Positions 3,524 to 36,326 of a stretch of DNA of 37,243 bases are shown here, piece by piece; positions within the stretch are counted from its first letter, which is position 1, and every line of letters begins with the position of its first letter. Source of the stretch: Clostridia bacterium (GTDB lineage: Bacteria; Bacillota; Clostridia; Oscillospirales; CAG-272); assembly GCA_017540175.1 (NCBI GenBank), contig JAFYBN010000022.1:1-37243 (forward strand), given 5' to 3'. The translations under genes and the position numbers were made by a program. The notes under the pieces were generated by a model. The model was not told the origin of the DNA, did not search any database, and was given only the letters and a program-made list of their open reading frames with translations.

Positions 3524-4299
3524 GCGTTCGTCTCCCCGGGGAGCCAGTCGAGGCTGACGAACCAGTTCTTCATGAGACCCGCCCACTGAGCGACATGGGG
3601 TTCGCTCTGCGCGAGTCCGAGTCCGTGCGCCCCGTGCGGGAAGACGTGCACCTCATGCGGGATCCCGTGCCTTCTCAGCGCCGCGGCGTAGAGATAGGAA
3701 TTGATCACGTTGACGCCCGCGTCGTCGGAGGTGTGCCAGATAAAGGCGGGAGGCGTTTTGTCCGTGACGTTGAGATCGTTCGAGACGGCGGCGTACGGAA
3801 TCTTTCCGCCGCAGAGATTCTGGAACGAGCCGACGTGCGCGACGCCTGTCTCGTCCGGCATATGGCAGACGGGATAGCAGAGGATCGTCGCGTCGGGCAG
3901 AAAATCCTCCCGGTCGATCTCGTCCGCGTCCTCTCCCTCAATGGGGGTGAGATAGGTCGAAACCATGCCCGCGAGATGCCCGCCCGCGGACGAGCCCATC
4001 ACGGCGATTTTATGCGGATCGAGACCGAACTGTGCCGAACGGCTGCGCACCCAGCGCACCGCGCGGCGCGCGTCGAGAAGCGGCAGGGGAAAATAATCCG
4101 GCGCGACGCGGTATTCGCAGACGAAGGCGTCCATGCCGATGGAATTGAGGTACAGGGCGTAGCCCTCTCCCTCGTGCGGCGCGCGGAACGCGTACGCCCC
4201 GCCGGGAAAGATAACGACGGTCGAATCGGTGAGACGGTTTTCAGCCGGGTAATACTCGATGACCGTGCCGCCGTCCTGCCATAAGGTATAGGTTTTCAT
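3520..4299 (-). CDS. Alpha/beta-hydrolase esterase (acetyl-esterase/BD-FAE-like)
   Basis: A 259-aa alpha/beta-hydrolase. The oxyanion-hole segment reads VIFPGGAY, the nucleophile elbow is VMGSSAGGHLAG (GxSxG), and the C-terminal HTSDD...FPHGAHGLGL supplies the Asp and His. This combination is typical of small carbohydrate acyl esterases (COG0657, acetyl-xylan-esterase-like or BD-FAE-like). No signal peptide is visible, so it probably acts on imported acylated sugars. The start at 4299 follows a GGGAGG ribosome site. It heads an overlapping three-gene unit with the MATE and sulfatase genes. A clear paralogue lies at 8497-9285. Confidence 0.9.
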   Translation of the reverse strand: MKTYTLWQDGGTVIEYYPAENRLTDSTVVIFPGGAYAFRAPHEGEGYALYLNSIGMDAFVCEYRVAPDYFPLPLLDARRAVRWVRSRSAQFGLDPHKIAVMGSSAGGHLAGMVSTYLTPIEGEDADEIDREDFLPDATILCYPVCHMPDETGVAHVGSFQNLCGGKIPYAAVSNDLNVTDKTPPAFIWHTSDDAGVNVINSYLYAAALRRHGIPHEVHVFPHGAHGLGLAQSEPHVAQWAGLMKNWFVSLDWLPGETNA

Positions 4300-4633
4300 G
4301 CATGCCTCCCAGGGTATGTATTGGTTTGTCTCAGATTTCGTTCCGAATGGGGGTGGGCGATTCTTCCGGTGAACGCTGCCCGTCCGACGTCCGGAGCCGT
4401 AAAAGCCGCCCACCGATCACATCCGGTAACGGATATCCGCCGATAAGCCGGCGGATTTGCCGCAGCCTTCCGCAACGGGGAGGAGTGTCGGCAAGAGAGG
4501 GCGGCCTCATGCGGAACGCCTGATTTCGCCCGATTTGTCCGGAGCCTGTCTTCTTCATCATCAAGCGCATGCCGTCCCCCATCGGGAGGGGGAGGACATG
4601 CGCTTGACAGATCGTGCTTTCGTTTGTCCTGAC
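4300..4633. other. Intergenic gap between esterase and small lipoprotein genes
   Basis: No gene is supported in these 334 bases. The only clear structure is the stem-loop listed separately at 4562-4606. The upstream region of the esterase must contain its promoter if the unit is not read through from the lipoprotein genes, but I see no convincing -35/-10 pair. Confidence 0.5.
4562..4606 (-). terminator. Long stem-loop after lipoprotein gene, terminator-like without U-run
   Basis: A perfect 10-bp outer stem (CAAGCGCATG / CATGCGCTTG) encloses C-rich and G-rich arms that extend the pairing. It lies 28 nt past the stop of the 4634-5032 gene on the minus strand. No U-tract follows, so it may protect the 3' end or attenuate transcription rather than act as a classical intrinsic terminator. 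Confidence 0.4.
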
Positions 4634-18815: not shown

Positions 18816-20933
18816 TTATGATTCAAGCTGCTTGCCGAGGAAGAGCGCGGCGGTCTGGACGAGCTTTGCCTCCACGTCCGGCGCGACGGGGGACTTCTCT
18901 TCCCCCCTTACGGACGCGACGCAGCCCGCGATGTCTCCTTCGGTGATGATCGGCATCAGGCATCCGACGGGCTGGCCGCCTTCGACGACGCTGACGGTCT
19001 CGCCGCCGGCGGGGACATAGAGCTGACGGTTTTCCACGATCCGCTCGACCTCGGCGGTGAGCTTGCGGTCGGCGTAATCCCTCTTCGGGACACCCGCGCA
19101 GGCGATGACGGCGTCGCGGTCGCAGATCACCACGGAGAGCCCGCAGGTTTTCGACAGAGTTTCGGCGTACTGCCCGGCAAACTGTGCAAGCTCTCCGATG
19201 GGGGAATATTTCTTGAAGATGACCTCGCCCTCGCGGTCAGTGTAGATTTCGAGCGGGTCACCGTCACTGATAACGTCTACACCGATGGGCGCGATTTTGT
19301 CCTCTTCGGTCGGCAAAACGCTCATGGAAGTGTCCGCATCTCCCGCGCGGAGGATGGCGTCGACATCCGGCTTCAGTTTGATTTCGACATGGTCCTTGTA
19401 CACTACGATAGTATCCACGATCATTCCGACATCCCTCTTATCCAGCGAATCCTTGCAGAGGATATCCCGGAAAACCTCCGTTAAAGTTTTCGCGGTGCGC
19501 CGGATGCGGATGTTGTCGCTCCTGCTCTGCTGAATCAGTTCGATCTGGTTGGTCAGTCCTTCGATCTTGCTCTGGACCTCGTTTTCCAGCTCGTCGTAGG
19601 TTTCGTCGAGCACCTCCTCCTGTTCCGGGTGCTTCATGATGTCGCGGATCCGCTGACGCTTCGTAGCCTTCAGCTCCTCCCTGAGCCCCGCGATCGTCTC
19701 CGTCAGCTTCGAGATGGTTACGTCCGCGTTCCGCTCGTCGATCTTTCCGACCTTCTCCTCACGCTCGAGCGATTCGAGCATCGCAGAGGAGGTATCGATC
19801 AGGCGGGCGATATAGGTTTTCACGATCGCGTCGAGCTTATCCGCGCGGATTGTATGCGCGGAGCAATGGGCCCTGCCGAGCCGGAAGTAGGTCCCGCACA
19901 GATACGCGGGCGCGAGGTTCGGACGGTTCCGGCAGAACATCGGAGCACCGCAGTCCCCGCACCGCAGGAATCCGGCGTAGACGTTCTCATGCTTCTTGAC
20001 GCCGCGGTAATTCGTCTTTGACCGATGCTTCCTCAGTTCCTGCGTTTCGGCGAAGGTTTTGTAATCGATTATGGCGGGATGGTGGTCTTCGATGACGATG
20101 TGATCCGCCTCGTCCTTTTTCACGTCCTTGCCGTTGATTTTCGCCCTGGTGTATTTTCCCTGTCTGAGCGTCCCGATATAGAAGTCGTTGTCGAGAATCT
20201 CCTGAACCGTGATCAGGCTCCATTCCCGTTTGGCGATTTGCCTGTTTTCCCCGCCTTCCGCCTCCGCCCGCATCTTTTCCGTCATGCGCGGCGTGGGGAT
20301 GGCATGGTCCGTCAGGTATTTCGCGATCTTTTTGTACCCGTAGCCTTCTTCATTATATAGCTCGAAGATCTTTTTCACGACGGCGGCGGATTCCGGGACG
20401 ATCTCGAATTCGGACTTCTTATTGACCCTGTACCCGAAGGGGGCGGCGCAGATCCACTTCCCGTCCGCCTGTCTGCGCTTGATGACCGCTTTGATCTTTT
20501 TGGAGGTATCCGTCACGGGCATTTCGTTGATCAGGAACTGGAACTGGATTTTGAGCCAGTCGTCATCGTTCGGGAAGTCGATCCCGTCGCTGACGGAGAT
20601 GATGCGCACCCCGGCGTCCCTCAGGTCCTCAAGCTCCACGAGTCCGCGGCTGTTGCGCCGCGAGAATCGGGAGAAGTCCTTGACGATCAGGATGTCGTAC
20701 CGGTGCGCCATCAGGCCCCGGCGCATTTCCTGATATTGCTCACGCTGTTCGAATGTATAACCGGAGCGGTCCCGGTCCTCGTAGAAGGTGAGGGAGCTGC
20801 CCGGGAACCGCTGTTTGACGTAATCCTCGATGATATCCTTCTGGTTTTCGATCGAGGTGTTGTCCCGGTCAAGCTCGAGGTCCACCGAGATCCGCGCGTA
20901 TCCGGCGATGGCGTATGTTTCTGTCAATGTCAA
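18816..20933 (-). CDS. Large serine recombinase fused in frame to the C-terminal part of SpoVT
   Basis: A 705-aa chimera. Residues 7-150 are a serine-recombinase catalytic domain (AGYARIS, Ser16; KDFSRFSRRN), about 165-290 the Recombinase domain, Cys325/328/346/357 the zinc ribbon and about 375-475 a coiled coil, as in integrases of clostridial mobile elements. A typical end is reached near residue 530 (YKDHVEIKLKPDVDAIL). From residue 557 the sequence becomes SpoVT: DGDPLEIYTDREGEV, KKYSPIGEL, then the whole GAF-like domain to VQTAALFLGKQLES. Only the first ~31 residues of the SpoVT AbrB domain are missing. SpoVT is a forespore regulator. The natural reading is integration of an element into spoVT with the recombinase at the junction. 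Confidence 0.9.
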   Translation of the reverse strand: MTLTETYAIAGYARISVDLELDRDNTSIENQKDIIEDYVKQRFPGSSLTFYEDRDRSGYTFEQREQYQEMRRGLMAHRYDILIVKDFSRFSRRNSRGLVELEDLRDAGVRIISVSDGIDFPNDDDWLKIQFQFLINEMPVTDTSKKIKAVIKRRQADGKWICAAPFGYRVNKKSEFEIVPESAAVVKKIFELYNEEGYGYKKIAKYLTDHAIPTPRMTEKMRAEAEGGENRQIAKREWSLITVQEILDNDFYIGTLRQGKYTRAKINGKDVKKDEADHIVIEDHHPAIIDYKTFAETQELRKHRSKTNYRGVKKHENVYAGFLRCGDCGAPMFCRNRPNLAPAYLCGTYFRLGRAHCSAHTIRADKLDAIVKTYIARLIDTSSAMLESLEREEKVGKIDERNADVTISKLTETIAGLREELKATKRQRIRDIMKHPEQEEVLDETYDELENEVQSKIEGLTNQIELIQQSRSDNIRIRRTAKTLTEVFRDILCKDSLDKRDVGMIVDTIVVYKDHVEIKLKPDVDAILRAGDADTSMSVLPTEEDKIAPIGVDVISDGDPLEIYTDREGEVIFKKYSPIGELAQFAGQYAETLSKTCGLSVVICDRDAVIACAGVPKRDYADRKLTAEVERIVENRQLYVPAGGETVSVVEGGQPVGCLMPIITEGDIAGCVASVRGEEKSPVAPDVEAKLVQTAALFLGKQLES
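19245..19265 (-). other. Probable attachment-site junction (element/spoVT)
   Basis: Codons 557-563 (DGDPLEI) are where similarity to SpoVT begins; the preceding VDVIS is not SpoVT-like. In intact SpoVT this point lies in the RIREGDPLEI segment of the AbrB fold, so crossover most likely took place at or near GGTGACCCGCTCGA. The partner half-site with the SpoVT N-terminus is not visible in the window. Confidence 0.6.
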
Positions 20934-20967: not shown

Positions 20968-21270
20968 TCACTTTTCTTCCGGATAGCAAGCGTTTTTCTG
21001 AAAACTTTTTTTGTACAAATCGCGGCTATCGTTATAGTCTGCGTTTTCCCGAAGGCTTTTTTTATACAACTCGTAATTATGGAGAGCCAGTTGTCGGGTG
21101 CATTCCCGAAGGTCCTCTCTGCCGGACCGGAAAACGACGACGCCGATGCCGAGCGTTTTCATATATCCCGTGAATTCCCTGATCTTTTTCTCGATCCGTT
21201 CATCGCCCGTTTCCGCTTTCATCAGCCAGATTTCGAGCATGCACAGTTCGGGATTCATAACTGTGATCAA
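20968..21270 (-). CDS. Small hypothetical protein upstream of the recombinase
   Basis: Up to 100 aa, mostly charged and helical. It contains TGDERIEKKIREFTGYMKTL and two similar C-terminal stretches (LYKKSLRENADY and LYKKSFQKNACY), an imperfect internal repeat. The start is uncertain: TTG at 21270 has AAGGAT at good spacing, while ATG at 21258 is the alternative. It lies 34 nt before the recombinase gene and is probably co-transcribed with it. I do not recognise the family; position suggests an accessory or regulator of the recombinase. Confidence 0.6.
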   Translation of the reverse strand: MITVMNPELCMLEIWLMKAETGDERIEKKIREFTGYMKTLGIGVVVFRSGREDLRECTRQLALHNYELYKKSLRENADYNDSRDLYKKSFQKNACYPEEK

Positions 21271-21577: not shown

Positions 21578-21949
21578 TTATAACTGATAGATATGTCTGT
21601 TTTCCTCCCCGATGGCGAGACTGATGGCGAGAGCCCTGTCGAGGCGCAGATGCGTCGTCCTGTCCACGTTCCCGAGCCGTTTGACCAGACGCTTTGTGTC
21701 TATGGTCCGCAACTGCTCGGTCATGATCATGGACTTCCGGCTGAGCTCTCCCTCCTCCATCCGGACGGGGATATGGGTCGGCATCCCGGTTTTCTTGGCC
21801 TTCGTGGTGATACAGGCAACGATCACGGTCGGGGAGTGCCGGTTGCCGATGTCGTTCTGGACGATCACCACGGGGCGGGTACCTGCCTGTTCGCTGCCGA
21901 TGCTCCCGGACAGGTCTGCGACGTAAACTTCACCGCGTTTGATTGGCAT
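21578..21949 (-). CDS. PemK/MazF family mRNA interferase (orphan toxin)
   Basis: A 123-aa MazF/PemK protein: RGEVYVADLSGSIGSEQAGT, RPVVIVQND and the later TEQLRTID segment are diagnostic. MazF toxins cut RNA at short motifs. The start at 21949 has AAGGAGG. No AbrB- or RHH-type antitoxin gene precedes it; the upstream 434 bases hold no clear gene, and the downstream small proteins are not known antitoxins. It belongs to the recombinase cluster of the mobile element and may stabilise it. Confidence 0.92.
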   Translation of the reverse strand: MPIKRGEVYVADLSGSIGSEQAGTRPVVIVQNDIGNRHSPTVIVACITTKAKKTGMPTHIPVRMEEGELSRKSMIMTEQLRTIDTKRLVKRLGNVDRTTHLRLDRALAISLAIGEENRHIYQL

Positions 21950-22383: not shown

Positions 22384-22962
22384 TTAACAAACACCTTTTT
22401 CAAAGTATTTTCTGATTTTTTTGAAAATCTTTTTTTTCTGATAGTTGACAGCCTGTTGTGTCATTCCTAACACCTCTCCGGTTTTTTTCTCTGACAAAGG
22501 GTTTGTATCATTGTAAAGACAGTCAAGCAAACGGTTTTCATCATCCGTCAAAAATCTCCGCGCTTTTCTCAGGGTCAGCAGCATCATCCGATGGATTACC
22601 TCGCCCTCAACGTCGACATACTCATCCTTGATAATGTCGTAGAGGTTCGTCTCATCTCCATCTGAATTCTCAATCGTTTGATCCAAAGAAACCTCAATGA
22701 TTCCAGAATCCTCTTTCACCTGTTCCAAATAGTCTTCTCGGTTTTTCTCCGCCTTGACCTTCTTTGCCAATTTTGCAGGGACTTCAACCCCAATTCTGTC
22801 TGTTCCATATTCATTGTCCTTATAGAACACCTTGTTTTTTCCTTCCTTGCTATTTAGATACTCAAATAACGCTTTTCCCTTCAGAGCCATGTAGCGGATA
22901 TCCCCGTCCACGGAGGGAAACGATCCATTCTTGGAATCTTTTACATAGAAAATCTTAGACAC
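22384..22962 (-). CDS. Sigma-70-like factor of the mobile-element type
   Basis: A 192-aa protein starting SKIFYVKDSKNG. The N-terminal half (RYMALKGKALFEYLNSKEGK, then GTDRIGVEVP) and middle (LYDIIKDEYVDVEGEVIHR) are typical of small sigma-like proteins carried by clostridial conjugative elements. The C-terminus is a region-4-type helix-turn-helix (LSEKKTGEVLGMTQQAVNYQKKKIFKKI). I place the start at a GTG (22962) with AAAGGA 7 nt upstream. The frame stays open to an ATG at 23130, but that part does not fit the family. It probably controls element genes. It is clearly A+T-richer than the chromosomal genes on the left. Confidence 0.8.
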   Translation of the reverse strand: MSKIFYVKDSKNGSFPSVDGDIRYMALKGKALFEYLNSKEGKNKVFYKDNEYGTDRIGVEVPAKLAKKVKAEKNREDYLEQVKEDSGIIEVSLDQTIENSDGDETNLYDIIKDEYVDVEGEVIHRMMLLTLRKARRFLTDDENRLLDCLYNDTNPLSEKKTGEVLGMTQQAVNYQKKKIFKKIRKYFEKGVC

Positions 22963-23190
22963 TTCTGTTTCCTTTCCCCTTGGATCATCAGGCAAAGGAA
23001 ATCCATAGACCGTTTTCAATATCCCGGTTCTGACGGCAGGACGGCCAGCATCAAAAAATGGACGCACAAGGCCGAGGGTGCCGTCCGAAGCGAAATAACT
23101 CCCGTTTGGGGTCGCGCTTCGTATGAACATCCTTTGCCCGTATGCATCCAGGCTTTGAATATGTTTTGTTAAGGTGGGGTCAGCCGCTTC

Positions 23191-23391
23191 TCACAATCTT
23201 TGTGACAGCTCGGCTGCAGCTGGTTTTCTTGACAACATGACCACTACGGGTATCTCCCGATGGCGGTCTGCCAGATCTCGTGTATCTTCATCCTCTTTAG
23301 ACCTTCTACTTTTGACCGGAAAATAAAAAGCCGGGGTATAGACATTAAACCATTCCTCCAAAAGGAACAGTTCTCGTCTATACCCCGGCAC
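23191..23391 (-). CDS. Possible 66-aa protein whose 5' end forms the terminator hairpin
   Basis: A GTG-initiated frame starting MPGYRRELFLLEEWF and ending KPAAAELSQRL. Its first 22 codons lie within the perfect hairpin at 23330-23389, so the DNA there is constrained by structure. I do not recognise the product. It may be a chance frame. Confidence 0.25.
   Translation of the reverse strand: MPGYRRELFLLEEWFNVYTPAFYFPVKSRRSKEDEDTRDLADRHREIPVVVMLSRKPAAAELSQRL
23324..23389 (-). terminator. Strong terminator-like hairpin after the RecA operon
   Basis: A perfect 14-bp stem (GCCGGGGTATAGAC / GTCTATACCCCGGC) with a 32-nt loop is followed on the minus strand by TTTTTA. The loop contains a small inner stem (TTCC/GGAA) holding a GGAGG sequence. 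It lies 264 nt beyond the RecA stop; the 23390-23652 interval shows no gene. It separates the RecA series from the sigma-like gene. Confidence 0.75.
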
Positions 23392-23652
23392 ACTTCACGA
23401 TAAACGGATGGCACGTAAGACAGGTATTAGGTTTTTCCCACCACCATGCCGAATCTGCACACCTTCGACAGACCACGGTCTCACAGTTTTCATGTGGCTA
23501 GGCCGGAACCTCAACTGAAGACGACCAGTGAGTGTACCGGTTTCAGAACATTTCAGCTTGTGCCAATAGTCCTGAATTTGTGTTAGAATTGTTTTTCAAC
23601 ATCAATTCTGGCTAGTCACCTCGAAGCATCCTGATCCAGATACGGCAGGTTG

Positions 23653-24807
23653 CTATTCGTAATCTTCCCCCAGTTCAAGAGTCCTAATATCAAGATCGTC
23701 ATCCATTCCGTCGGAGAGCAGCGCATCTTCGTCGATTGGAAGATCTTCTTGATTCATGTCCGCACTCCTTGCTTTTTCCTTGATCTTCACTTCGATTTCA
23801 GCCGCAAGTTGAGGGTTCTGTTCAACAGCGATCCTGGCGTTGTCTTTGCCTTGAGCCAGACGATTCCCGTTGTAATAGAACCATGCGCCGCTCTTTTCAA
23901 GAATGCCCAGGTTTACTCCCAACTCCACGATTTCTGAGGCTTTGGAAATTCCAGTTCCGTACAGAACATCAAACTCAACAATCCTGAACGGAGGCGCGAC
24001 CTTATTCTTTACGACCTTGCATTTGGTCCTGTTGCCATAGATTTCAGCTCCGTTCTTGAGGGATTCGCTCTTCCGTATTTCAATTCGCACGGAGGCGTAA
24101 AACTTCAGAGCGCGTCCTCCAGTAGTAACCTCCGGATTGCCGTACATCTGGCCGACCTTTTCCCGAAGCTGGTTGATAAAGATGACGATGGAGTTTGTTT
24201 TGGAGATGGTACCGGAGAGTTTACGGAGAGCCTGTGACATCAGTCTTGCCTGAAGGCCGACATGGGCAGCGCCCATATCCCCGTCGATCTCTGCTTGTGG
24301 AACAAGCGCTGCGACGGAGTCTATTACAATGATGTCCACAGCGCCGGATCGTACCAAAGCATCGCAGATCTCAAGTGCCTGCTCGCCGGAATCAGGCTGA
24401 GAAACGAGGAGGTTATCGATATCCACCCCCAGGTTCTTCGCATAGACGGGATCCAGCGCATGCTCCGCGTCAATGAACGCGGCGGTACCGCCTGCCTTCT
24501 GCATTTCGGCGATAGCATGGAGAGTCAGAGTAGTCTTACCGGATGATTCAGGTCCATAGACTTCGACAATTCTTCCCCGCGGAAGACCTCCTACTCCAAG
24601 CGCAATGTCAAGGCCGATGGATCCGGTCGATATGACTTCTACGTTCATCTTTGGCGTCTCGCCCATACGGATTATTGTTCCCTTTCCAAACTCCTTCTCG
24701 ATCTGGCCGAGCGCGGTGTTAAGAGCTTCCTTTTTCCCTTCAGCTGTAGTTAGATCGAATTCTTTCTTCTTGATTTTAGTGGCGTTTTTCTTGTCTGCTG
24801 GCATCAT
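23653..24807 (-). CDS. recA: RecA recombinase, element-borne
   Basis: A full-length 384-aa RecA. Walker A is GPESSGKT (85-92), Walker [11 protein letters not shown] (about 159-168), and the DNA-binding L2 region follows [20 protein letters not shown]. The C-terminus is long and acidic ([19 protein letters not shown]), as in RecAs whose tail moderates DNA loading. RecA forms filaments on single-stranded DNA, promotes strand exchange and activates SOS self-cleavage. AGGAAGG precedes a double ATG. It is the last gene of the series from the XRE repressor and lies 58 nt after the SRAP gene. Chromosomal recA usually sits elsewhere, so I infer a second, mobile copy; I cannot see whether the host has its own. 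Confidence 0.95.
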
Positions 24808-24865
24808 GTGTTCCTTCCTCGATTTAATAATCGTTTTGTTCGTATGTTTTTTCCTCGATATGACC

Positions 24866-25513
24866 TCACCCTGCCGCTACATACAGGTCGGTCAGAGCAT
24901 ACCTTATAAGCTTTGCCGGATCCTTCTGCGGCGTAATCCATTCTTCCATGAAAGATGATGGAAGGATAACCGGCATCCGGTTGTGGATAGCGCGCATATC
25001 CCCGGCGCTGTCTCTCGTAAGGATCGTAAATGAGGGGTAGGTCAAACCACTCACTGTTTCGGTATGGTACAGCCCCGCCAGCCATGTTGGCGATGTACCT
25101 TTGGATTGTATAATATACCTGGCTTTTCCTGCTTTAGTTAGACGGACGTTATCCTCAGACTGCGGTGGCCCCCACTCGAAAAAGTAACTTGCTGGGATGA
25201 TACATCTATGAGAAGCCCACGCGTCCCGGAACGAGGGAACAACAGCAGCTGTTTCCACGCGGGCATTTACCAACGGTCTTCCTCTTCGGGACGGTTCCGG
25301 CGTAAAGCCCCAAACCATAGGGAAAGCCCGGATTGAGCCTTTTTTGTCCCACGCAAGCACCGGAACCATATCGGTCGGACTTATTTCTCCGGATATTCTC
25401 AAAGGGCGGGCAAGACGGGCCACCATCTTATCCTTCAGCGGTGAAGCCGCTGCTTGTTTGAAGTATTCTGCGAATTCGTCTGCTTTGTCGTCTATGTAGT
25501 AGCGGCAGCACAT
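24866..25513 (-). CDS. SRAP domain protein (HMCES/YedK-like abasic-site shield)
   Basis: A 215-aa SRAP protein starting M-C-C-R-YYIDD. After Met removal Cys2 forms the thiazolidine link to abasic sites in single-stranded DNA. Other catalytic residues are visible: Asn83/Arg85 (VNARVET), Glu113 (FFEWG) and His177 (AIHNRMPV). It protects abasic sites at stalled forks. The start at 25513 is chosen because Cys2 must become N-terminal and a perfect AGGAGG lies 7 nt upstream. The reading frame, however, stays open for 113 further codons upstream (see next entry). It sits between the YolD-like and RecA genes. Confidence 0.9.
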
Positions 25514-25852
25514 TGCGGTTTCCTCCTGTCTGTCTTCTGGCTTAACGTATTGTATCATGGAATCAAGAGGGGTGTCAAGAGATTCGGGAATCCTGACGGT
25601 GATCAGCTTCTGGACGAATGTTACGTGAGCTCCCTTTCGTGACACTCCTATATGCATACCGCGAATAAACCCGAAGCAGGTAAGCAGCGCAAGGGTTTCC
25701 TCCCTCGACAGGAAATCCACTGTGCAAATGACATCAAGTATTCGCGTGGACTCCGAAATGAAGAATATGATCGGAAAGAAAGACCTGTAGATGTAGTATC
25801 GTATCCCGTTATGTTCTTCTGATGTCGGAATAAGAAGAGGCGGTTTATTCAT
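25514..25852 (-). CDS. 113-codon in-frame extension upstream of SRAP, function unknown
   Basis: This frame starts at an ATG overlapping the YolD stop (ATGAATAA arrangement, typical of coupled genes) and runs without stop straight into the SRAP frame, so a 328-aa fusion would end at 24866. The segment looks protein-like: RYYIYRSFFPIIFFISES, CTVDFLSREETLALL, MHIGVSRKGAHVTF. I do not recognise a family. If translated through, Cys2 of SRAP would be internal and inactive as a crosslinker. Internal initiation at 25513 would give active SRAP. Either two products are made from one frame or this is a separate gene that lost its stop. Confidence 0.5.
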
Positions 25853-26357
25853 CGTCGTCCTCCCACGATTCCACTGCTATCCCTCGTTTTTCAAAAACCG
25901 GACCGTTGATCTGGCGGATGTTTTCAAAACCGATTGCTGCTTCCCCGACCAGTATAACCCGATTTACCGGGTCAACCAGCCATACCACTCCTGTTACAGT
26001 ATCATATGTTCCTCCAGTTCCGTATGCTTCGCTATAGATATCAGCGCACGGAGCGAAGTATTTGATGGAAACTACGATCCGGTTCTCTCTGGCTTGTTTT
26101 CCGTTCTTGGTGAGCTGTGCCAGCAGCCGGAGCCGCTTATCCAGTGTTGCTGCCTCATCCTCCGATAAAGCTGTCTGAGTTAGGTAAACAACATCCTTGA
26201 ACCTTAAGGTATGATCAAATCCATCCAATGCGTCGAACGGGGCAAAAATCTTTGCCCGGTGTGTCCGATCCATAGGTGGATGTTTTCGCAGGAAGATGTC
26301 GTCGTAGCGGGGCGGTCCTGCAAGAAGCGTTTTTGCATATTGGAATTCTGTTGCCAT
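25845..26357 (-). CDS. YolD-like protein, partner of the Y-family polymerase
   Basis: A 170-aa protein with the YolD-like core HRAKIFAPFDALDGFDHTLR near residues 33-52 and a C-terminal beta-rich part (YDTVTGVVWLVDPVNRVILV). YolD-like genes typically sit next to UvrX/UmuC-type polymerases in Bacillota and are thought to act as UmuD-like accessory factors. Here the start is 38 nt after the polymerase stop, with AGAGGA as ribosome site. The stop overlaps the start of the following frame. Function is inferred from family and neighbourhood. Confidence 0.85.
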   Translation of the reverse strand: MATEFQYAKTLLAGPPRYDDIFLRKHPPMDRTHRAKIFAPFDALDGFDHTLRFKDVVYLTQTALSEDEAATLDKRLRLLAQLTKNGKQARENRIVVSIKYFAPCADIYSEAYGTGGTYDTVTGVVWLVDPVNRVILVGEAAIGFENIRQINGPVFEKRGIAVESWEDDDE

Positions 26358-26395
26358 GATTCTATCCTCTTATAGTTGGCTTGAGGCGATATGGA

Positions 26396-27859
26396 TCAGG
26401 ATGTATCCACTGTTCGCAGCGGTGGATGAACCGGTTTCGGATCAGGCTGTTTCTGCGGAAGAGGCGTTGCTCCTGCCTTATGACCTCCTATACTCTCGTT
26501 CCGTGAGATTGTCGTTCCGCTTTTGCCCAGATTCATCCCGCGAACTACGGCATTAAGACCATACCGCCTCCGCACCTGAACCATCACGCGCTGTAGTTCG
26601 CGTTCCTTATCAAGCTCATCGGCTGATGTAAACATATCCAACTGTCCGTCGCCGATATCGTGCAGAGTATTGCAGGCGCAGATGCCCAGACGTCGGATGA
26701 GAAACCGCGGATCGACATGGGTCTTAAAAGACGCGCAGAGCGCTTCCATAATCGCCCTTTTGCTGTTCGTTCGGGTGCGGAGCCTGACTGTTCCGTGAGC
26801 AGCTTTCGGCTGAATCTTATGGTAGAAGTCTTCTTCGAGTTCGTTTTCTTTCAGGGTAATCGAATCCAGGGTCGTCGGATCGAAAATGATCCACCAGGTC
26901 ATGGAGTCAGTGGTAAGATTCTTTGCCACAAGGTCAGAACAGAGTAGGTCTGTCATCTCCTTGAAAACAAGAAACCCTTCATTGTGTTTATATGCGCGAG
27001 GCAGGACCTGCCCAGTGCTCAAACTGTGTCCCTGCGGCTTGTATGCTTTGATATCCGCCATAGTTGCCGTCTCAATGCCCCATGCATGATCGATCAAAAG
27101 CTCCGCGTTGATGCCAAACAATTTGTACAGGATTTCAGGGGTTGAAAGGCTCACAGTAGCGATATCACCCATCGTGCGCATTCCGTGCGATATGAGGCGG
27201 CGGGCGGTTCCCGGTCCGACTTGCCAAAAATCTGTCAAAGGACGGTGAGACCACAGTTTAAGGCGGTATGTTTCCTCATCCAAAGTGGCGATGCGGACGC
27301 CATCCTTGTCTGGGGCTGCTTTCTTGGCGACTATGTCCATCCCGATCTTGGCAAGGTAAAGATTTGTTCCTATTCCAACTGTGGCAGTTACGCCGGTGAC
27401 TCTGAGTACCTCCCGCACGATCTGCATGGCTATGTAGTGAGGAACGCTCACCCCGGCTTCCGCAGCAGCTTTTCCGTACATCATTTCATATCGTCCGGCG
27501 TCCACGAAGAACTCGTCGACGGAGTACACATGGATGTCTTCCGGAGAGACGAATCTCTGCGCGATCTCGTAAATCTTAGCGCTCGTTCGGATATACTCTG
27601 CCATTCGCGGTTCTGCAATGATATAGTCGACTTTGCACCGATGCTGTGCCTCGTATAGAGCGATAGCCTGTTTTGCCTCAAACAGCCTCGGACGGCTTGG
27701 CACGCCGATTGCTTTTAAGGCAGGGGAAACCGCCAGACAGATTGTTTTATCCGTTCGGGACTCATCCGCAACGAGAAGACGGGCGGTAAGCGGATCAAGC
27801 CCTCGCGTTACGCATTCTACGGAAGCGTAATAGCTTTTCATATCTACTGCGAAGTACAT
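26396..27859 (-). CDS. Y-family DNA polymerase (UmuC/UvrX-like)
   Basis: A 487-aa translesion polymerase. The palm motifs read YFAVDMKSYYASVE (metal-binding Asp6) and VYSVDEFFVD (Asp115, Glu116). Helix-hairpin-helix residues follow (FWQVGPGTARRLISHG), then the little-finger domain. A beta-clamp-binding motif QLDMF lies near residue 405, and a Pro/Gln-rich tail ends the protein. Catalytic residues are intact. The ATG at 27859 has GAGGAG 7 nt upstream; a slightly longer frame to 27880 is not supported. It is followed by its YolD-like partner, as in Bacillus uvrX-yolD pairs. It copies damaged DNA with low fidelity. Confidence 0.93.
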   Translation of the reverse strand: MYFAVDMKSYYASVECVTRGLDPLTARLLVADESRTDKTICLAVSPALKAIGVPSRPRLFEAKQAIALYEAQHRCKVDYIIAEPRMAEYIRTSAKIYEIAQRFVSPEDIHVYSVDEFFVDAGRYEMMYGKAAAEAGVSVPHYIAMQIVREVLRVTGVTATVGIGTNLYLAKIGMDIVAKKAAPDKDGVRIATLDEETYRLKLWSHRPLTDFWQVGPGTARRLISHGMRTMGDIATVSLSTPEILYKLFGINAELLIDHAWGIETATMADIKAYKPQGHSLSTGQVLPRAYKHNEGFLVFKEMTDLLCSDLVAKNLTTDSMTWWIIFDPTTLDSITLKENELEEDFYHKIQPKAAHGTVRLRTRTNSKRAIMEALCASFKTHVDPRFLIRRLGICACNTLHDIGDGQLDMFTSADELDKERELQRVMVQVRRRYGLNAVVRGMNLGKSGTTISRNESIGGHKAGATPLPQKQPDPKPVHPPLRTVDTS

Positions 27860-27913
27860 GCGAATCTCCTCAAAGAGCATGGCGCTCGATATTTACACTC
27901 CCTGCATCGCTGC

Positions 27914-28231
27914 TCAAATGATGCAGACCGGGGAACTGAGGTTATTGGCCTCCGCCCATTCGAGGAGTCCGGTCACCTCGTCCTCGAGTGCAGTTACAGG
28001 GAGTTTCTTCTCCTTCCAGAAGAAGATCAGCCGAACGATTGCAAACAGCAGGCGCTGCCGGGATTCATGACCCTGAGCGGATGCGATTTCGTTGATCCGG
28101 TCAGCGTACCTTCCTACGAAGTAGTTGATAGCTGATATCGCTTCTCCATAGGAGGTTAACCTTGTCGGACAGGGTAGTTCAGCCGGAATGAACGGCTCGG
28201 TAGATGTAAGATTGATATGTTCCATTGTCAT
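27914..28231 (-). CDS. Hypothetical 105-aa protein before the polymerase
   Basis: A helical protein with RLTSYGEAISAINYFVGRYADRI and ARHESRQ-like charged segments, ending LLEWAEANNLSSPV. The start at 28231 is chosen for GAGGAG just upstream; the frame remains open to 28345. It lies 54 nt before the polymerase gene and 158 nt after the zinc-ribbon gene. I do not recognise the family. Context suggests a damage-response accessory. Confidence 0.65.
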   Translation of the reverse strand: MTMEHINLTSTEPFIPAELPCPTRLTSYGEAISAINYFVGRYADRINEIASAQGHESRQRLLFAIVRLIFFWKEKKLPVTALEDEVTGLLEWAEANNLSSPVCII

Positions 28232-28327
28232 TGTTCTCCTCTTTTGCCGTGGAATGTCGCGGCATTTCATCTTTTTAGCAGCCAAACAGATTATTTTTTG
28301 TGATAAATCGTTATGCGGAATGATTGC

Positions 28328-28357
28328 AAATATATGTTCTTTCATTGGCGCAAAAAA
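28328..28357 (-). promoter_or_regulatory. Possible internal promoter with LexA-box-like sequence
   Basis: On the minus strand a weak -35 (TTTTTT), a 17-nt spacer and TATATT lie about 100 nt before the 105-aa gene. GAACATATATTT overlaps the -10 and differs by one base from the GAAC-N4-GTTY core of Gram-positive LexA sites. Weak evidence, supported mainly by its place in the largest gap of the series. Confidence 0.3.
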
Positions 28358-28389
28358 TCCCTATGTATAGCATCTCTGGCGGAGGGGTG

Positions 28390-29256
28390 TCACGCCGTCT
28401 TTTTCCTTTTTCCCGCGGAAGGCCTTTTCCTCCACGGTTTGATTTCTTGTTTTTCTTGTTTCTTGCTTCTGAATGGGATCTGGCTTTCGAATTCGTCGCT
28501 GAACAATATGCGGTGCAAGGGCTTTTCATCCGAGTCCTTTATGGGAAGATCGTCTATGAAGTCACCTTCGTCGTCCGACCAGAAATCGCTGGAATCATCT
28601 GCCCAGAAGGTCTCATCCCTGTCGGCCCAAAGGAAATCGGTATCATCGTCTATGAAGTCTTCGTCACCATCGGACCAGAAAGAGCTTGTATCTTCGTCTG
28701 GGAACCATCTTGTGTCCGGCGGTTTGAGCGATCTTTCTGCATAACTGAAGTCTTCATCCTCGCCATCATCGATTGGCAACCCGTCTTCATCGACAGCAAA
28801 GCCAGCTTTATTTGCCGATTGATTGTTGGGGGCGTACGGATCTTCCCGCATCCGAATCTCATCAAAGGACGGAGTTCTCTGATCATCCCAATCCAATTCT
28901 GGAGATTCGGGTTCGTCCTCCCATACAATATCCGGCGGTTCATAGAATTCGGAACGTGCCAGTTTCGCTTCTTCCTTCGTTGCCGGGCGAACCGCTGCGA
29001 TTTCTTCCTTTACCTTGTCATCGAGCGAGGGAGGAATCTCTGGGGGAGACTCCTTCTGTTTCCTCCCGGACGGCTTCCTGTTTTTACGCTTGGCATCCCT
29101 CTCAGCTTGTTTCGCCATCAGGAGGGCTGCTTCTTCGACGGCAATCTGTCTTCTGGACCAGATGACGGTCGTACTCTTACAATACGGACACTTGATATCT
29201 TCTCGGACAGGAATGTGGTCAAACAGCCCTTTACAGCTACGGCAGCAATAAATCAT
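28390..29256 (-). CDS. Zinc-ribbon protein with acidic aromatic repeats
   Basis: A 288-aa protein of three parts. Residues about 3-27 form a zinc ribbon (CCRSCKGLF...IKCPYCKS). A charged linker follows. From about 165 to 245 comes a very acidic stretch with repeated Phe/Trp-Asp units (SFWSDGDEDFIDDD, FLWADRDETFWADD, DFWSDDEGDFIDDLP). The last 35 residues are strongly basic (KPWRKRPSAGKRKKTA). The start at 29256 has GAGGTG. It lies between ImmA/IrrE and the polymerase block. I know no named family. The acidic-aromatic units recall DNA mimics or SSB-tail-like peptides; this is speculation. Confidence 0.75.
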   Translation of the reverse strand: MIYCCRSCKGLFDHIPVREDIKCPYCKSTTVIWSRRQIAVEEAALLMAKQAERDAKRKNRKPSGRKQKESPPEIPPSLDDKVKEEIAAVRPATKEEAKLARSEFYEPPDIVWEDEPESPELDWDDQRTPSFDEIRMREDPYAPNNQSANKAGFAVDEDGLPIDDGEDEDFSYAERSLKPPDTRWFPDEDTSSFWSDGDEDFIDDDTDFLWADRDETFWADDSSDFWSDDEGDFIDDLPIKDSDEKPLHRILFSDEFESQIPFRSKKQEKQEIKPWRKRPSAGKRKKTA

Positions 29257-29300
29257 AATCGTACACCTCACTCAAAACGCGATCTATTGTTTGATTCACA

Positions 29301-29888
29301 TCATTCACACCATTCTGTCGAACTGCTTCCGTGAATGCTGCCCATGAAATTGTTCTTTGGTAGATACGGAAGCTGTCTGAGATTATATCCTTCCCTGCGT
29401 AGCGAATCGATCTTATACATCAGCAGATTAACGTTGACGTGAATTGCAGAAGCTATCTCCAGAAGTGTTTTTTGAGAATAAAGGAGATCGAGCAGTTCTT
29501 CTTTGTCGATTCTGATGTCCGCCGCAAAAGTATTCGCTTCTGCTTCACGGGGAAGGCGCACATTGAAAATCTCGTATTCTTTTATTGGGGAAAGCTTCAA
29601 CTCTGCCCTGTGCAGAACAGCATGCCCCAATTCATGAGCGCCTACCTGCAGAATGTCATCCCTCATCGCTTCATCGGTGTACAGCTTGTCTTTGGCTTGC
29701 ATAGCTTCGAAATAGGCTTTATTGATGAAGATAGAAGGACGGTTCGCTGCTAGGCAGGTCAGTCCGGGAAGCTTTGATTCAGGATGATGGAGATAATGGA
29801 CCTTAATTTCCAAATATTCGGCTATCTCAAAGGGATTGCGGGTGCCGAATCTCCTGACCAAAGCGGTGGGGTCCCGCGAGAATGACAT
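29301..29888 (-). CDS. ImmA/IrrE family metallopeptidase
   Basis: A 195-aa zinc protease with HELGH at residues 85-89 in the context VGAHELGHAVLH and the downstream EAEANTFAADI segment (third ligand Glu). ImmA in ICEBs1 and IrrE in Deinococcus cleave XRE-type repressors after DNA damage. Here the gene is 15 nt downstream of an XRE repressor gene, the classical pairing. The predicted role is damage-triggered cleavage of that repressor. Confidence 0.93.
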   Translation of the reverse strand: MSFSRDPTALVRRFGTRNPFEIAEYLEIKVHYLHHPESKLPGLTCLAANRPSIFINKAYFEAMQAKDKLYTDEAMRDDILQVGAHELGHAVLHRAELKLSPIKEYEIFNVRLPREAEANTFAADIRIDKEELLDLLYSQKTLLEIASAIHVNVNLLMYKIDSLRREGYNLRQLPYLPKNNFMGSIHGSSSTEWCE

Positions 29889-29903
29889 TTTTCGTTCCTC
29901 CGA

Positions 29904-30332
29904 TCAATTGGAATCCCCTTCTGTGGACTTTCCTTTCTTGGTCTTATTGGCAAAGCGTTTGTTGTATTTCTTGGCGTCCTCATATGTCTGCATCATGGCC
30001 TCTTTGATAAAGTCCAGATCGTCGTCGTCGAGTTCGCCTCCGGCCGCAGCAATACGAAAAGTCCGGACAACATCTTCCGCCTGTCTCCTGCCTCGGCTTC
30101 CATACTGTTCCTGCGCTTTGATGACAAAATCGTCCATATCGTCCATCAATTCTGAAACCTCCAAGCCGAGAGCTGCCGAGAGTTTCTGGTATGACTCTTT
30201 TGTTTTCGGCTTCCGTCCGCCGCTTTCATAGTTCGTGATAGTCCGCAGGGAGATCCCCGTCATCTCGGACAATTCCTTTTGCGACAGGTTCATCGCAAGT
30301 CTTGCTTTCCTTACTTTTTCTCCGAATTCCAT
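29904..30332 (-). CDS. XRE-type (Cro/CI-like) transcriptional repressor
   Basis: A 142-aa regulator with an N-terminal HTH_3 domain (residues about 5-60: VRKARLAMNLSQKELSEMTG, ISLRTITNYESGGRKP). A helical C-terminal part follows (ELMDDMDDFVIKAQEQYG), then a basic tail. The start at 30332 has AAGGAAG. It is the first gene of the minus-strand series and is followed by ImmA/IrrE. The 9-bp repeats in its promoter region are the likely operators, giving autoregulation and control of the opposing promoter. Confidence 0.92.
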   Translation of the reverse strand: MEFGEKVRKARLAMNLSQKELSEMTGISLRTITNYESGGRKPKTKESYQKLSAALGLEVSELMDDMDDFVIKAQEQYGSRGRRQAEDVVRTFRIAAAGGELDDDDLDFIKEAMMQTYEDAKKYNKRFANKTKKGKSTEGDSN

Positions 30333-30398
30333 ACACTCTTCCTTTCTTTGATGGCCGCGGGCTCCCGAAGGTTTTTTCTGAATTTTTCGGATTCCCTC

Positions 30399-30427
30399 TT
30401 GACATCCCCGAGGGGGTCTGCTATAAT
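30399..30427 (+). promoter_or_regulatory. Consensus promoter facing the XRE operon
   Basis: Perfect TTGACA (30399-30404), 17-nt spacer and perfect TATAAT (30422-30427). Transcription would start near 30434, inside the repeat array, and run to the 87-aa gene. It faces the minus-strand promoter at 30458-30486. Confidence 0.85.
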
Positions 30428-30430
30428 TGA

Positions 30431-30482
30431 TACGCAACATACGCAACTTACGCACCTATAATAACACGCAACATGCGCATTG
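30431..30482. promoter_or_regulatory. Array of 9-bp operator-like repeats
   Basis: Adjacent units TACGCAACA, TACGCAACT and TACGCACCT (30431-30457), then after seven bases CACGCAACA and TGCGCATTG (30465-30482). The array lies exactly between and over the two facing promoters, as expected for binding sites of the XRE repressor. Confidence 0.75.
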
Positions 30483-30486
30483 TCAA
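30458..30486 (-). promoter_or_regulatory. Promoter of the XRE-ImmA-RecA series
   Basis: On the minus strand perfect TTGACA (30486-30481), 17-nt spacer and TATTAT (30463-30458). The start point falls within the 9-bp repeats. It is the only strong promoter seen for the roughly 7-kb minus-strand series. Confidence 0.82.
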
Positions 30487-30570: not shown

Positions 30571-30834
30571 ATGGAAGAAAAACAACAGTTCAGGGACGGC
30601 AAGGTTGATCTGGTTGTCCATGGACGATTCAAGAATGCAAAAAAGAGACGCTTGTACACAACGCACTTTCTCCCTTCTGCCAAACCGCGTATGATTGGGG
30701 AACCGTATCGGATCAACGGTAAGCCATCATTGGCTTATGTGAAAGATGGGAAGGTTGAATCATATATTTCATGGGATGAGGCCTCAAAGGAAATCTGCAA
30801 GGACGATCTTCCAGAAATTGATGTAGGGTTCTGA
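30571..30834 (+). CDS. Hypothetical 87-aa protein opposite the XRE operon
   Basis: The only gene read from the rightward promoter of the switch. It is basic at the N-terminus (HGRFKNAKKRRLYTTHF) with a beta-rich middle (RINGKPSLAYVKDGKVESYI). GGAGG lies 6 nt before the ATG and a terminator follows. No HTH is seen and I do not recognise the family. Its position corresponds to that of Cox/Apl-type or excision genes in P2/186-like switches, but homology is not visible. Confidence 0.7.
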   Translation: MEEKQQFRDGKVDLVVHGRFKNAKKRRLYTTHFLPSAKPRMIGEPYRINGKPSLAYVKDGKVESYISWDEASKEICKDDLPEIDVGF

Positions 30835-30927: not shown

Positions 30928-31068
30928 CATGAATATAAAGATCGAAGGCGTGATCCTCGGTCAGGTCGTGTCGGCGGACAGACCGACGAAGGACGAGCGG
31001 GAGACGCTTGAGTTCGTGATGGAGAAGAAGGTCAGGGAGTTCAGGATCAACAACGGCATCGCGGACTG
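30928..31068 (+). pseudogene. Short frame, probable gene remnant
   Basis: A 46-codon frame starting MNIKIEGVILGQVVSADR and ending FRINNGIAD. It is G+C-rich like the chromosome and protein-like, but short and with only a weak ribosome site. It is immediately followed by a phosphoesterase fragment, so I read it as part of a scar of broken genes. Confidence 0.4.
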
Positions 31069-31094
31069 AAAGCATCCGTATTGGAGGAGAAACG

Positions 31095-31316
31095 GTATAT
31101 TATATCGCAGATACGCATTTCGGGCATGAAAACGTCATCGGCTTCTGCGGCCGTCCCTTTTCGAGTGCCGCGGAAATGGACGAAGTCATGATTGAAAGGC
31201 GGAACCGCAAGGTTCATGGATACGAAATGCTGCTTCATCCTCTATCTTCTTTTGGTTTCAATATAAGCGTTCACTTTTTTAGTCGTCCGTCCGACCGTGC
31301 GTCCCTCCCCGTTTGA
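31095..31316 (+). pseudogene. Truncated metallophosphoesterase
   Basis: The frame reads VYYIADTHFGHENVIGFCGR then PFSSAAEMDEVMIERRN, the N-terminus of a well-known calcineurin-like phosphoesterase group (normally followed by W-x-x-x-V then further metal motifs). After HG the similarity stops and an unrelated A+T-rich tail leads to a stop. No ATG stands at the expected position. GD, GNH and GHxH motifs are absent. A non-functional remnant. Confidence 0.7.
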
Positions 31317-35189: not shown

Positions 35190-35295
35190 CGCCGATCCTT
35201 TGCCGCGGATGTTTCCCGCATACGATACGCCGCGGTCCGCTGTTCCCGCCTGTCGTGGAACCGCTGATTTCGTCGAATCTAATCCGGGAGGAATT

Positions 35296-35748
35296 ATGAA
35301 TCTCAAAATCCTGACGACCGAGGATAAGGAATCCGTCACAAACCTGTTCCGGGATGTCTTCACGCGCGAACCGTGGAACGACGACTGGAGCGATCCGGAA
35401 CAGCTCGCGGCATATATCGACGACCTGATCGGGCAAAGCAATTCCCTCACGTTCGGATATCTGGACGGCAATCGGCTTGTCGGTCTGGCGATGGGACGGA
35501 TCAAGCATTGGCACGAGGGGACGGAGTACTGCATCGACGAATTCTGTGTGGACGCAGCGTTTCAGAACCGGGGGATCGGCAGCGCTTTTCTGAGCGAGAT
35601 CGAAGCTCATCTTTCCGAAAACGGCGTCCGGTATCTCTTTCTCCAAACGGACAGGACCGTTCCCGCCTGCAGCTTCTATACGCACCGCGGGTTCTTTGAG
35701 CTGAATGACAACGTATCGCTCGCAAAAAGGATTGAAGACCGAGCATGA
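35296..35748 (+). CDS. GNAT family N-acetyltransferase
   Basis: A 150-aa acetyltransferase. The acetyl-CoA-binding motif reads QNRGIGSAF (residues 90-98), preceded by the strand EYCIDEFCVD and followed by YLFLQTDRTVPACSFYTHRGF, the typical end. This arrangement resembles AAC(6')-like members. GGGAGG precedes the ATG. The stop overlaps the next start by ATGA. The substrate is not inferable. Confidence 0.9.
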   Translation: MNLKILTTEDKESVTNLFRDVFTREPWNDDWSDPEQLAAYIDDLIGQSNSLTFGYLDGNRLVGLAMGRIKHWHEGTEYCIDEFCVDAAFQNRGIGSAFLSEIEAHLSENGVRYLFLQTDRTVPACSFYTHRGFFELNDNVSLAKRIEDRA

Positions 35749-36326
35749 AAAAGAAACACACTTATCCCGCCAATCTGTTCCTCGATCTGATCAACGTTGA
35801 ATCGAACGACGAAAGGCTCGCCGATTATCTGATCTCTCATCTGCGTTATCTGGAATCCGTGATTGTCAGAGCACGTTATCAGGAATACCGGACGTACCGG
35901 TCAATCGCCGATGAATTGGATTCAAATTCAACCAGCGTATCCATCAGATGTCACCGCGCGCTAAAATACATGAAGGCTCCATTGCATCCCGGTGTTCCGT
36001 TGATATATGAAATCGTAGCGCAGGATTTACTGGAAAGAAAACAGACCGCAATGATCCGGATCACCGAAAACACACCTTTCTACCTTATATCCGATATTTC
36101 AGAAATCGCAGACCGTGCCCTGCCGCGCAACGGAGTTGAGACCCTCGGACAAATTGCCGACCTGTCCGAGGAAGACATCCTCTCACTGCATGGCGTCGGT
36201 CCGAAAACCGCAAAGGAAATTATTCGTTTTCAAAGTACGATTTCCACATGGCTGCTGAAGGGCGAGTATCTTCTGGATACAAGAAGATATGCTCTTTATA
36301 AAGAAAGCCTCACGAACAGTAACTGA
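35745..36326 (+). CDS. Sigma-like HTH plus alpha-CTD/helix-hairpin-helix protein
   Basis: A 193-aa predicted DNA-binding protein. Residues about 36-78 resemble sigma region 4 (VIVRARYQEYRTYRSIADEL, TSVSIRCHRALKYM). Residues about 115-163 resemble the RNA polymerase alpha C-terminal domain or an HhH motif (ISEIADRALPRNGVETLGQI, LSLHGVGPKTAKEI). Such a pairing would touch promoter DNA in two ways. It is overlapped by the GNAT stop (ATGA), so the two are coupled. I do not know a named family. Confidence 0.75.
   Translation: MKKKHTYPANLFLDLINVESNDERLADYLISHLRYLESVIVRARYQEYRTYRSIADELDSNSTSVSIRCHRALKYMKAPLHPGVPLIYEIVAQDLLERKQTAMIRITENTPFYLISDISEIADRALPRNGVETLGQIADLSEEDILSLHGVGPKTAKEIIRFQSTISTWLLKGEYLLDTRRYALYKESLTNSN

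Follow-up and report, generated by a model that had tools for sequence, protein, structure and literature searches.

The 37,243-base stretch analysed here, hereafter the window, makes up all of contig C116 in a Clostridia bacterium genome (3.90 Mb in 125 contigs; estimated completeness 93.5%, contamination 3.5%). The window contains a tightly packed run of nine minus-strand genes (23653-30332), which encode, in order, an XRE-family repressor, an ImmA-type protease, a zinc-ribbon protein, a small open reading frame (ORF), a Y-family polymerase (PolY), a YolD-family protein, a 113-residue ORF, an SRAP protein and a second RecA, designated RecA2. The operon is, with fair probability, a horizontally acquired, self-regulated damage-tolerance cassette, in which XRE/ImmA control is combined with a Pol V-like mutasome of PolY, YolD and RecA2, with SRAP, and with a captured host recA. 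Two points are new and firm: this RecA has a nested, within-genus origin, and SRAP and all three predicted mutasome subunits are brought together with an XRE/ImmA pair. No description of an XRE/ImmA-PolY-YolD-SRAP-RecA operon was found in the titles and abstract starts of the open-licence papers searched.

RecA2 (23653-24807; TIGR02012, 1.2e-164) is full length. A second RecA of chromosomal type is encoded on contig C49 and is 82% identical to RecA2; the reading frames beside its gene look by eye like uvrB and recF. RecA2 is thus not the sole RecA of the genome, and a preliminary description of the region, which had taken it for an extra copy, was right. Among the 25 comparison genomes of the genus, 24 had any RecA match and only this one had two. 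Among the 196 of the family, 177 had any match and two genomes had two, this one and, provisionally, G106.

In a tree of 59 RecA sequences, from which the partial RecA of L315 was excluded, RecA2 is sister to the chromosomal RecAs of G204, G207 and G209 with support of 99/92, and is separate from the ten RecAs of plasmids and phages in the tree. An approximately unbiased (AU) test was run on 45 rows, with 15 excluded (L315, ten mobile RecAs and four family rows). Holding the chromosomal copies of the genus together as a clade without RecA2, a group named after the tree was seen, costs 32 log units with a p-AU of 0.0128. Because RecA2 is nested in the chromosomal clade of the genus in both analyses, a phage or plasmid lineage is rejected; the gene was apparently captured from the chromosome of a close relative within the genus.

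The G+C content at third codon positions (GC3) of recA2 is 0.55 versus 0.85-0.91 in its nearest kin, and its codons are A+T-shifted. Compared with the same kin, the nonsynonymous divergence (dN) is 0.15-0.17 and the synonymous divergence (dS) is 2.4, 2.9 or saturated; the dS of the chromosomal copies among themselves is 0.61-0.66. We take this to mean that RecA2 first underwent a strong compositional shift and has since been kept by purifying selection for a long time. Five of its residues depart from what at least 95% of 48 family RecAs have at those positions. The changes in RecA2 include K27E, a charge reversal in the RecA N-terminal oligomerisation motif at a position that is lysine in 48/48 family copies, and V220Q, which presumably falls in DNA-binding loop L2. 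Because 7 of the 48 family RecAs have as many or more unusual residues, these changes give only a hint of specialisation.

PolY (26396-27880; PF00817, 3.4e-26; phrog_1268, 3.3e-62) is UvrX/YqjW-like. It contains VDMKSYYA at residue 12 and SVDE at residue 120, which we take to be the catalytic residues. Its best match to the N-terminus of RecA2 (RecA-NT-like) is a stretch at residues 423-450, in the C-terminal tail where the motif is predicted to lie, and 9 of 500 shuffles match equally well. The 170-residue protein encoded after PolY (25845-26357) had been called YolD in the preliminary description. A single-sequence search finds no Pfam match for it, but the name holds in profile-profile comparison: in hhalign, a profile of 20 sequences (the window protein and 19 relatives) matches the YolD profile of Bacillus phage Goe14 at 96.7% and E 3.2e-10, and Goe14 YolD itself matches PF08863 at 8e-27. 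On this comparison the ORF before PolY was rejected as the YolD partner.

PMC6511836 and PMC12926913 predict a Gram-positive counterpart of Pol V composed of a YqjW/UvrX polymerase, YolD as the predicted UmuD counterpart, and RecA, joined through an RecA-NT motif in the polymerase tail. By homology, the operon encodes all three predicted subunits of such a mutasome, PolY, YolD and RecA.

The SRAP protein (24866-25513; HMCES/YedK family; PF02586, 7.5e-39) starts at 25513 with MCC (Met-Cys) behind an AGGAGG ribosome site. In all 18 relatives compared, namely 17 of the 20 SRAP-matching loci (L152, L164 and L245 lie outside the comparison) and L035, the match also starts at Met-Cys. The motifs NARVE, FEW and HNRMP are present, and we take NARVE and HNRMP to be the conserved active-site motifs of the family. 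The 113-residue ORF (25514-25852) overlaps yolD and continues in frame and stop-free into SRAP. A 328-residue SRAP fusion protein is nevertheless rejected, since the relatives start at Met-Cys; there are two reading units in one frame. The 113-residue ORF is an orphan, since searches of the other 195 genomes of the family and of viral contigs found no relative. An in-frame, stop-free reading frame also precedes SRAP in L157 (~9470-9640) and L158 (~4105-4336), where it is YolD-like. These upstream frames recall the autoproteolytic release of the SRAP N-terminal cysteine that is proposed in PMC3765255. UmuC-like polymerases have been linked with SRAP-like proteins (PMC12926913).

The first four genes of the operon precede PolY. 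The XRE-family repressor (29904-30332) matches PF01381 at 5.5e-13 when read as the longer ORF 29904-30455. It is followed by an ImmA/IrrE-type (M78) metalloprotease (29301-29888; PF06114, 5.1e-9) with HELGH at residue 85. The third gene (28390-29271, likely start 29256) encodes an acidic protein whose sequence has an N-terminal CxxC...CxxC zinc ribbon; it gave no family above cut-off in profile searches, and no relative was found in viral contigs. The small ORF (27914-28345, likely start 28231) has no family matches. Spacing within the operon ranges from an 8-bp overlap to 58 bp, with the exception of ~160 bp before the small ORF if this starts at 28231.

The operon promoter, TTGACA-17-TATTAT (30458-30486, minus strand), fits the consensus at 11/12 positions and has TG before the −10 element. 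A divergent promoter, TTGACA-17-TATAAT (30399-30427, plus strand), fits at 12/12 and faces an orphan 87-residue ORF (30571-30834, plus strand). This gene has the best promoter match of the region and has the putative XRE operator zone described below in common with the operon. After recA2, a hairpin followed by a U tract (~23321-23389, minus strand) forms a terminator of the Rho-independent type; the sequence 23310-23420 folds at −47 kcal/mol (z −7.0), and the hairpin is missing from the list of a simple terminator scan. GC content in the operon is 0.47-0.53, compared with 0.53-0.65 to the left of 22 kb and 0.54-0.63 between 31 and 35.5 kb. The gene content and coordinates given in the preliminary description proved correct by ORF and family searches, as did its strong terminator and an A+T content higher than that of most flanking sequence. 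Its single strong promoter stands in part: a further 11/12 match, TTGACA-18-TACAAT (25549-25578, minus strand), lies within the 113-residue ORF, ahead of SRAP and RecA2, as a possible internal promoter. The promoter scan gave 14 sites scoring at least 9/12 versus 9.2 expected by chance, so weaker sites say little.

Adjacent XRE repressor and M78 protease genes, the latter with HExxH, suggest how the operon is controlled. ImmA-based damage sensing is established in other systems and is putative here. Two exact copies of GTTGCGYA, a motif picked by eye from some of the sequences tested, lie between the divergent promoters (30431-30447, minus strand) as half-sites of a putative XRE operator, and one more occurs elsewhere in the 37 kb. 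Upstream of XRE, exact copies number two each in L141, L159 and L166 and one in L237; the totals per whole sequence are 3 in the window, 4 in L141, 3 in L159, 2 in L166 and 1 in L237. With one mismatch allowed, 4 sites lie upstream of XRE in the window, where its own density predicts 0.29; L072 has 6, L237 5, L159 4, L141 and L166 3 each, and L148 and L235 2 each, with 0.12-0.49 expected. The test covered 19 loci, among them L232, where 2 bp of upstream sequence make a match impossible; L188 and L285, with XRE on the other strand, were omitted from the 21 XRE-matching loci. In L141, L159, L166 and L237 the half-sites lie close to promoters of XRE-ImmA-PolY operons that are distantly related, and by eye those of L141, L159 and L166 form inverted pairs.

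The only LexA-type GAACN4GTTC site of the window, in a scan restricted to exact boxes, is at 4694 and outside the operon. LexA control through an exact box is rejected on this basis, and the role that the preliminary description gave to RecA2, activation of the SOS response, is not likely. Because the operon has no exact GAACN4GTTC, its sequence makes XRE/ImmA control more likely than LexA control. By analogy with ImmR/ImmA and with Deinococcus DdrO/IrrE, an XRE/M78 pair that controls recA independently of LexA (PMC8072749), ImmA would cleave XRE.

The modules of the operon recur elsewhere. Related PolY loci were fetched with an alignment of six polymerases (A1), from which L035 was omitted for a stop within its polymerase reading. 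The 160 fetched loci are the best 80 of at least 583 confirmed genome loci together with 80 viral-contig loci, and 87 of them extend more than 4 kb on both sides. The nearest match, phage contig L072, has the same order of XRE (52%), ImmA (37%), PolY (57%) and YolD (45%). By single-query tblastn, which makes all counts lower bounds, YolD was found within 2 kb downstream of PolY at 71 of the 160 loci and SRAP at 13; within 2 kb upstream, XRE was found at 17 and ImmA at 9. Within these limits, XRE or ImmA occurs together with SRAP at one locus (L168). Without a distance limit the counts are 73 for YolD, 21 for XRE, 20 for SRAP and 12 for ImmA. The zinc-ribbon protein, the 27914-28345 ORF, the 113-residue ORF and the 87-residue ORF had no match at the 160 loci. 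The family genomes G048, G038 and G006 each have, on one contig and strand, a PolY match preceded by an ImmA match at a distance of ~0.9-2.5 kb. Both XRE(-ImmA)-PolY-YolD and PolY-YolD-SRAP recur, in other Clostridia as well as in phage contigs. In the operon these two modules are thus combined, with RecA, the zinc-ribbon protein and two orphans as additions. The expectation of the preliminary description that these genes co-occur in other genomes thus holds for the two modules and not for RecA, which was found at none of the fetched loci.

RecA genes on mobile elements were compared separately. Eighteen plasmid recA regions were picked from the listed part of 351 records. A PolY/UmuC gene lies beside recA in 5 of the 18 (3 Lactococcus, 2 Serratia) and no PolY in the other 13; these counts draw on incomplete PLSDB gene tables, 2 of the 18 regions lack annotation and were checked by tblastn alone, and 2 are chromosomal-looking by gene names. 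In a fourth Lactococcus plasmid, a RecA fragment lies next to a transposase, and PolY is absent. PolY had no match in 13 RecA-bearing viral contigs. In 2 of the 3 Lactococcus plasmids a small ORF was compared with phage YolD by hhalign, at 92.6% and 42.6%; neither ORF matches the YolD profile of the window. The preliminary description had held that mobile polV-like cassettes normally rely on host RecA, which made RecA the unusual part. The PolY-YolD-like-RecA genes of Lactococcus and recA-umuD-umuC of Serratia are precedents to the contrary. Because 5 of the 18 plasmid regions pair RecA with PolY/UmuC and 0 of the 13 viral contigs do so, a RecA on board such a cassette is rare, but not new.

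The preliminary description placed the operon beside a serine recombinase. A large one is nearby (18816-20933, minus strand; PF00239, PF07508, PF13408, PF15714), but it lies 2.7 kb from recA2 with three ORFs between. Its ORF continues in frame into spoVT, taking in the 3' part of that gene (the last 150 residues of SpoVT), with the junction or att-like half at 19271. In 3 of the 25 genus genomes (this one, G199 and G210), recombinases that are 61-64% alike join spoVT in frame at an identical codon. A SpoVT match without recombinase occurs in 13 other genus genomes, and spoVT was intact in all five that were read. In G199 (C76/C98) and G210 (C91/C36), the 5' half of spoVT lies on another contig and is cut at the same GGCGACCCG core. 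The join looks like a skin-like split of a sporulation gene, and the element is possibly excised at sporulation. The listed papers on skin-like elements do not mention spoVT, and neither the spoVT 5' half nor a second att end was found in this genome. A small ORF upstream of the recombinase (20968-21270, minus strand) is alike by eye in the window and in G210 (L118, 5162-5416); it is a possible recombination directionality factor.

The operon is absent beside the same recombinase in G199 (~15 kb covered) and G210 (~5.8 kb covered), and the GC3 of the recombinase is 0.79 versus 0.47-0.58 for the operon genes. The operon is therefore rejected as fixed cargo of the spoVT recombinase. It is foreign-looking and phage-related and may be mobile; 'mobile', as the preliminary description called it, goes further than these data.

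The operon would work as follows. In an undamaged cell, XRE on the GTTGCGYA sites between the divergent promoters would keep the operon low. Upon DNA damage, the co-expressed ImmA-type zinc protease would cleave XRE and turn the operon on without LexA. PolY would bind RecA2 via its C-terminal RecA-NT-like stretch, YolD would be the small subunit, and SRAP would cap abasic sites where forks stall. RecA2 would have entered the cassette as a copy from a close relative's chromosome, and the cassette would thus have both a filament-forming recombinase and a polymerase activator under its own control. Of the self-contained mobile damage system that had been proposed for this region, the second recA, the recurrent modules and a putative operator stand; mobility, the SOS role and the novelty of RecA are unsupported or too strong.

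Several results weigh against a damage-tolerance cassette with a dedicated RecA. RecA was not found anywhere at the 160 fetched PolY loci, so its presence in this operon could be an isolated case. The possible promoter at 25549-25578 may uncouple SRAP and RecA2 from XRE control. Exact GTTGCGYA is missing upstream of XRE at 15 of the 19 loci tested, and at 12 of the 19 it is missing even with one mismatch; because the motif was chosen by eye from some of the test sequences, the support for a shared putative XRE operator extends no further than the nearest relatives. The RecA-NT-like match of PolY is modest. Because host RecA scores equal in this comparison, and the RecA of G209 slightly higher, a preference for RecA2 over host RecA is unsupported. 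PMC13335488 reports that no PolY2-RecA or PolY2-YqjX interaction was detected in B. subtilis. The group in the AU test was named with the tree in view, and the dS of RecA2, far above that of the chromosomal copies, fits a nested origin only with a strong shift in codon composition. Finally, no convincing flanking repeats or element ends were found around the operon.

The best-surviving alternative, which we consider possible yet doubtful, is that XRE-ImmA is a decayed lysogeny switch or switch of an integrative and conjugative element (ICE), that PolY, YolD and SRAP are ordinary accessory genes, and that recA is a chance capture that adds RecA dose, with no dedicated mutasome. It would account for phage contigs that carry XRE-ImmA-PolY-YolD without RecA, for the lack of RecA at the fetched PolY loci, and for a within-genus capture with a possible upstream promoter of its own. 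It sits less well with a complete RecA2 that, although synonymous sites have changed greatly, is under purifying selection and hence long kept, and with plasmids that combine PolY-YolD-RecA and recA-umuDC using unrelated RecAs. We regard it as improbable that RecA2 serves the element instead of translesion synthesis, for instance when an incoming phage or ICE recombines or restarts replication. Mobile RecAs do often occur without a PolY neighbour, as in the viral contigs and most of the plasmid regions above; yet recA2 closes an operon whose other recognisable enzymes act in lesion bypass or on abasic sites, and it is of host, not phage, lineage. That a 20-31 kb island from another organism was joined to the contig in assembly or binning would fit the sharp change in GC and GC3, the fragmentation into 125 contigs and the estimated contamination, but is very improbable, since both PolY and RecA2 have their closest counterparts in the same genus and the left flank is partly syntenic with genus mates around spoVT.

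The damage-tolerance cassette bears on the open question of whether Gram-positive Y-family polymerases form a Pol V-like complex with YolD and RecA. Modelling says yes (PMC6511836, PMC12926913), and work in B. subtilis detected no such interactions (PMC13335488). An operon with a polymerase, YolD and a separately captured RecA would be natural evidence of a functional link and a compact set for expression, and thereby a natural test of RecA as a working part of Gram-positive mutagenic polymerases. Recruitment of a housekeeping recA into a mobile-type cassette would allow such elements to increase repair and mutation in a newly entered host, with no reliance on its SOS circuit. In its strongest form, which we think unlikely, the operon would be a portable LexA-independent damage response, in which the XRE/ImmA switch releases a complete mutasome with a dedicated, specialising RecA2 and runs mutagenic repair even in hosts whose RecA or LexA is missing, repressed or incompatible.

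Other features flank the operon. A sigma-70-like protein (22384-23130, minus strand; phrog_13787, 4.8e-13; GC3 0.48) is a neighbour of uncertain membership; its phage-type matches are weak, and viral contig L240, on which there is also a PolY, gives a match of 40%. Between the recombinase and the operon lies a PemK/MazF-like toxin gene (21578-21949, minus strand; PF02452, 3.8e-31) with host-like GC3 of 0.78; no antitoxin gene was identified. On the other side, a metallophosphoesterase-like start is seen by eye at ~31060-31250 (plus strand) and ends abruptly near 31.2 kb, where GC climbs; this break may be the right edge of the island. Further right, a 480-bp segment (35287-35766) is 91% identical to G099:C98, where the surrounding DNA is unmatched, which suggests that it moved recently.

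Among known systems, the Lactococcus plasmids, typed as conjugative by PLSDB, resemble the window in that PolY, a small YolD-like gene and RecA are co-directional. Unlike RecA2, a within-genus copy, the Lactococcus RecA is of a divergent lineage (~43% to RecA2), and the annotated regions list neither an XRE-ImmA pair nor SRAP alongside. The Lactococcus RecA is presumably kin of the recA homolog recALP of pNP40, which reportedly lies beside a umuC-like gene. The Serratia plasmid recA-umuD-umuC is likewise a mobile Pol V-type operon that carries its own recA, but it has UmuD instead of YolD and no XRE-ImmA or SRAP listed alongside.

In ImmR/ImmA of the ICEBs1 type, a mobile element carries the gene of an XRE repressor next to that of an M78 protease, and the TnSmu1 module is related. 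These switches govern element activation, whereas in the window the downstream genes are for damage tolerance. To our knowledge, irrE and ddrO of Deinococcus are not neighbours of a translesion polymerase gene. Deinococcus DdrO/IrrE is similar to the window in having an XRE repressor, an M78 protease, recA and LexA-independence (PMC8072749), but it controls a genome-wide regulon, while the window has a compact operon. The UvrX-YolD and YqjW-YqjX operons and the mutasome predicted for them (PMC6511836, PMC12926913) are similar to the window in polymerase type, YolD partner and, on a modest match, RecA-NT-like stretch. The UvrX and YqjW operons of B. subtilis are described as LexA-controlled and would use host RecA, whereas the operon of the window is free of an exact LexA box and carries its RecA aboard.

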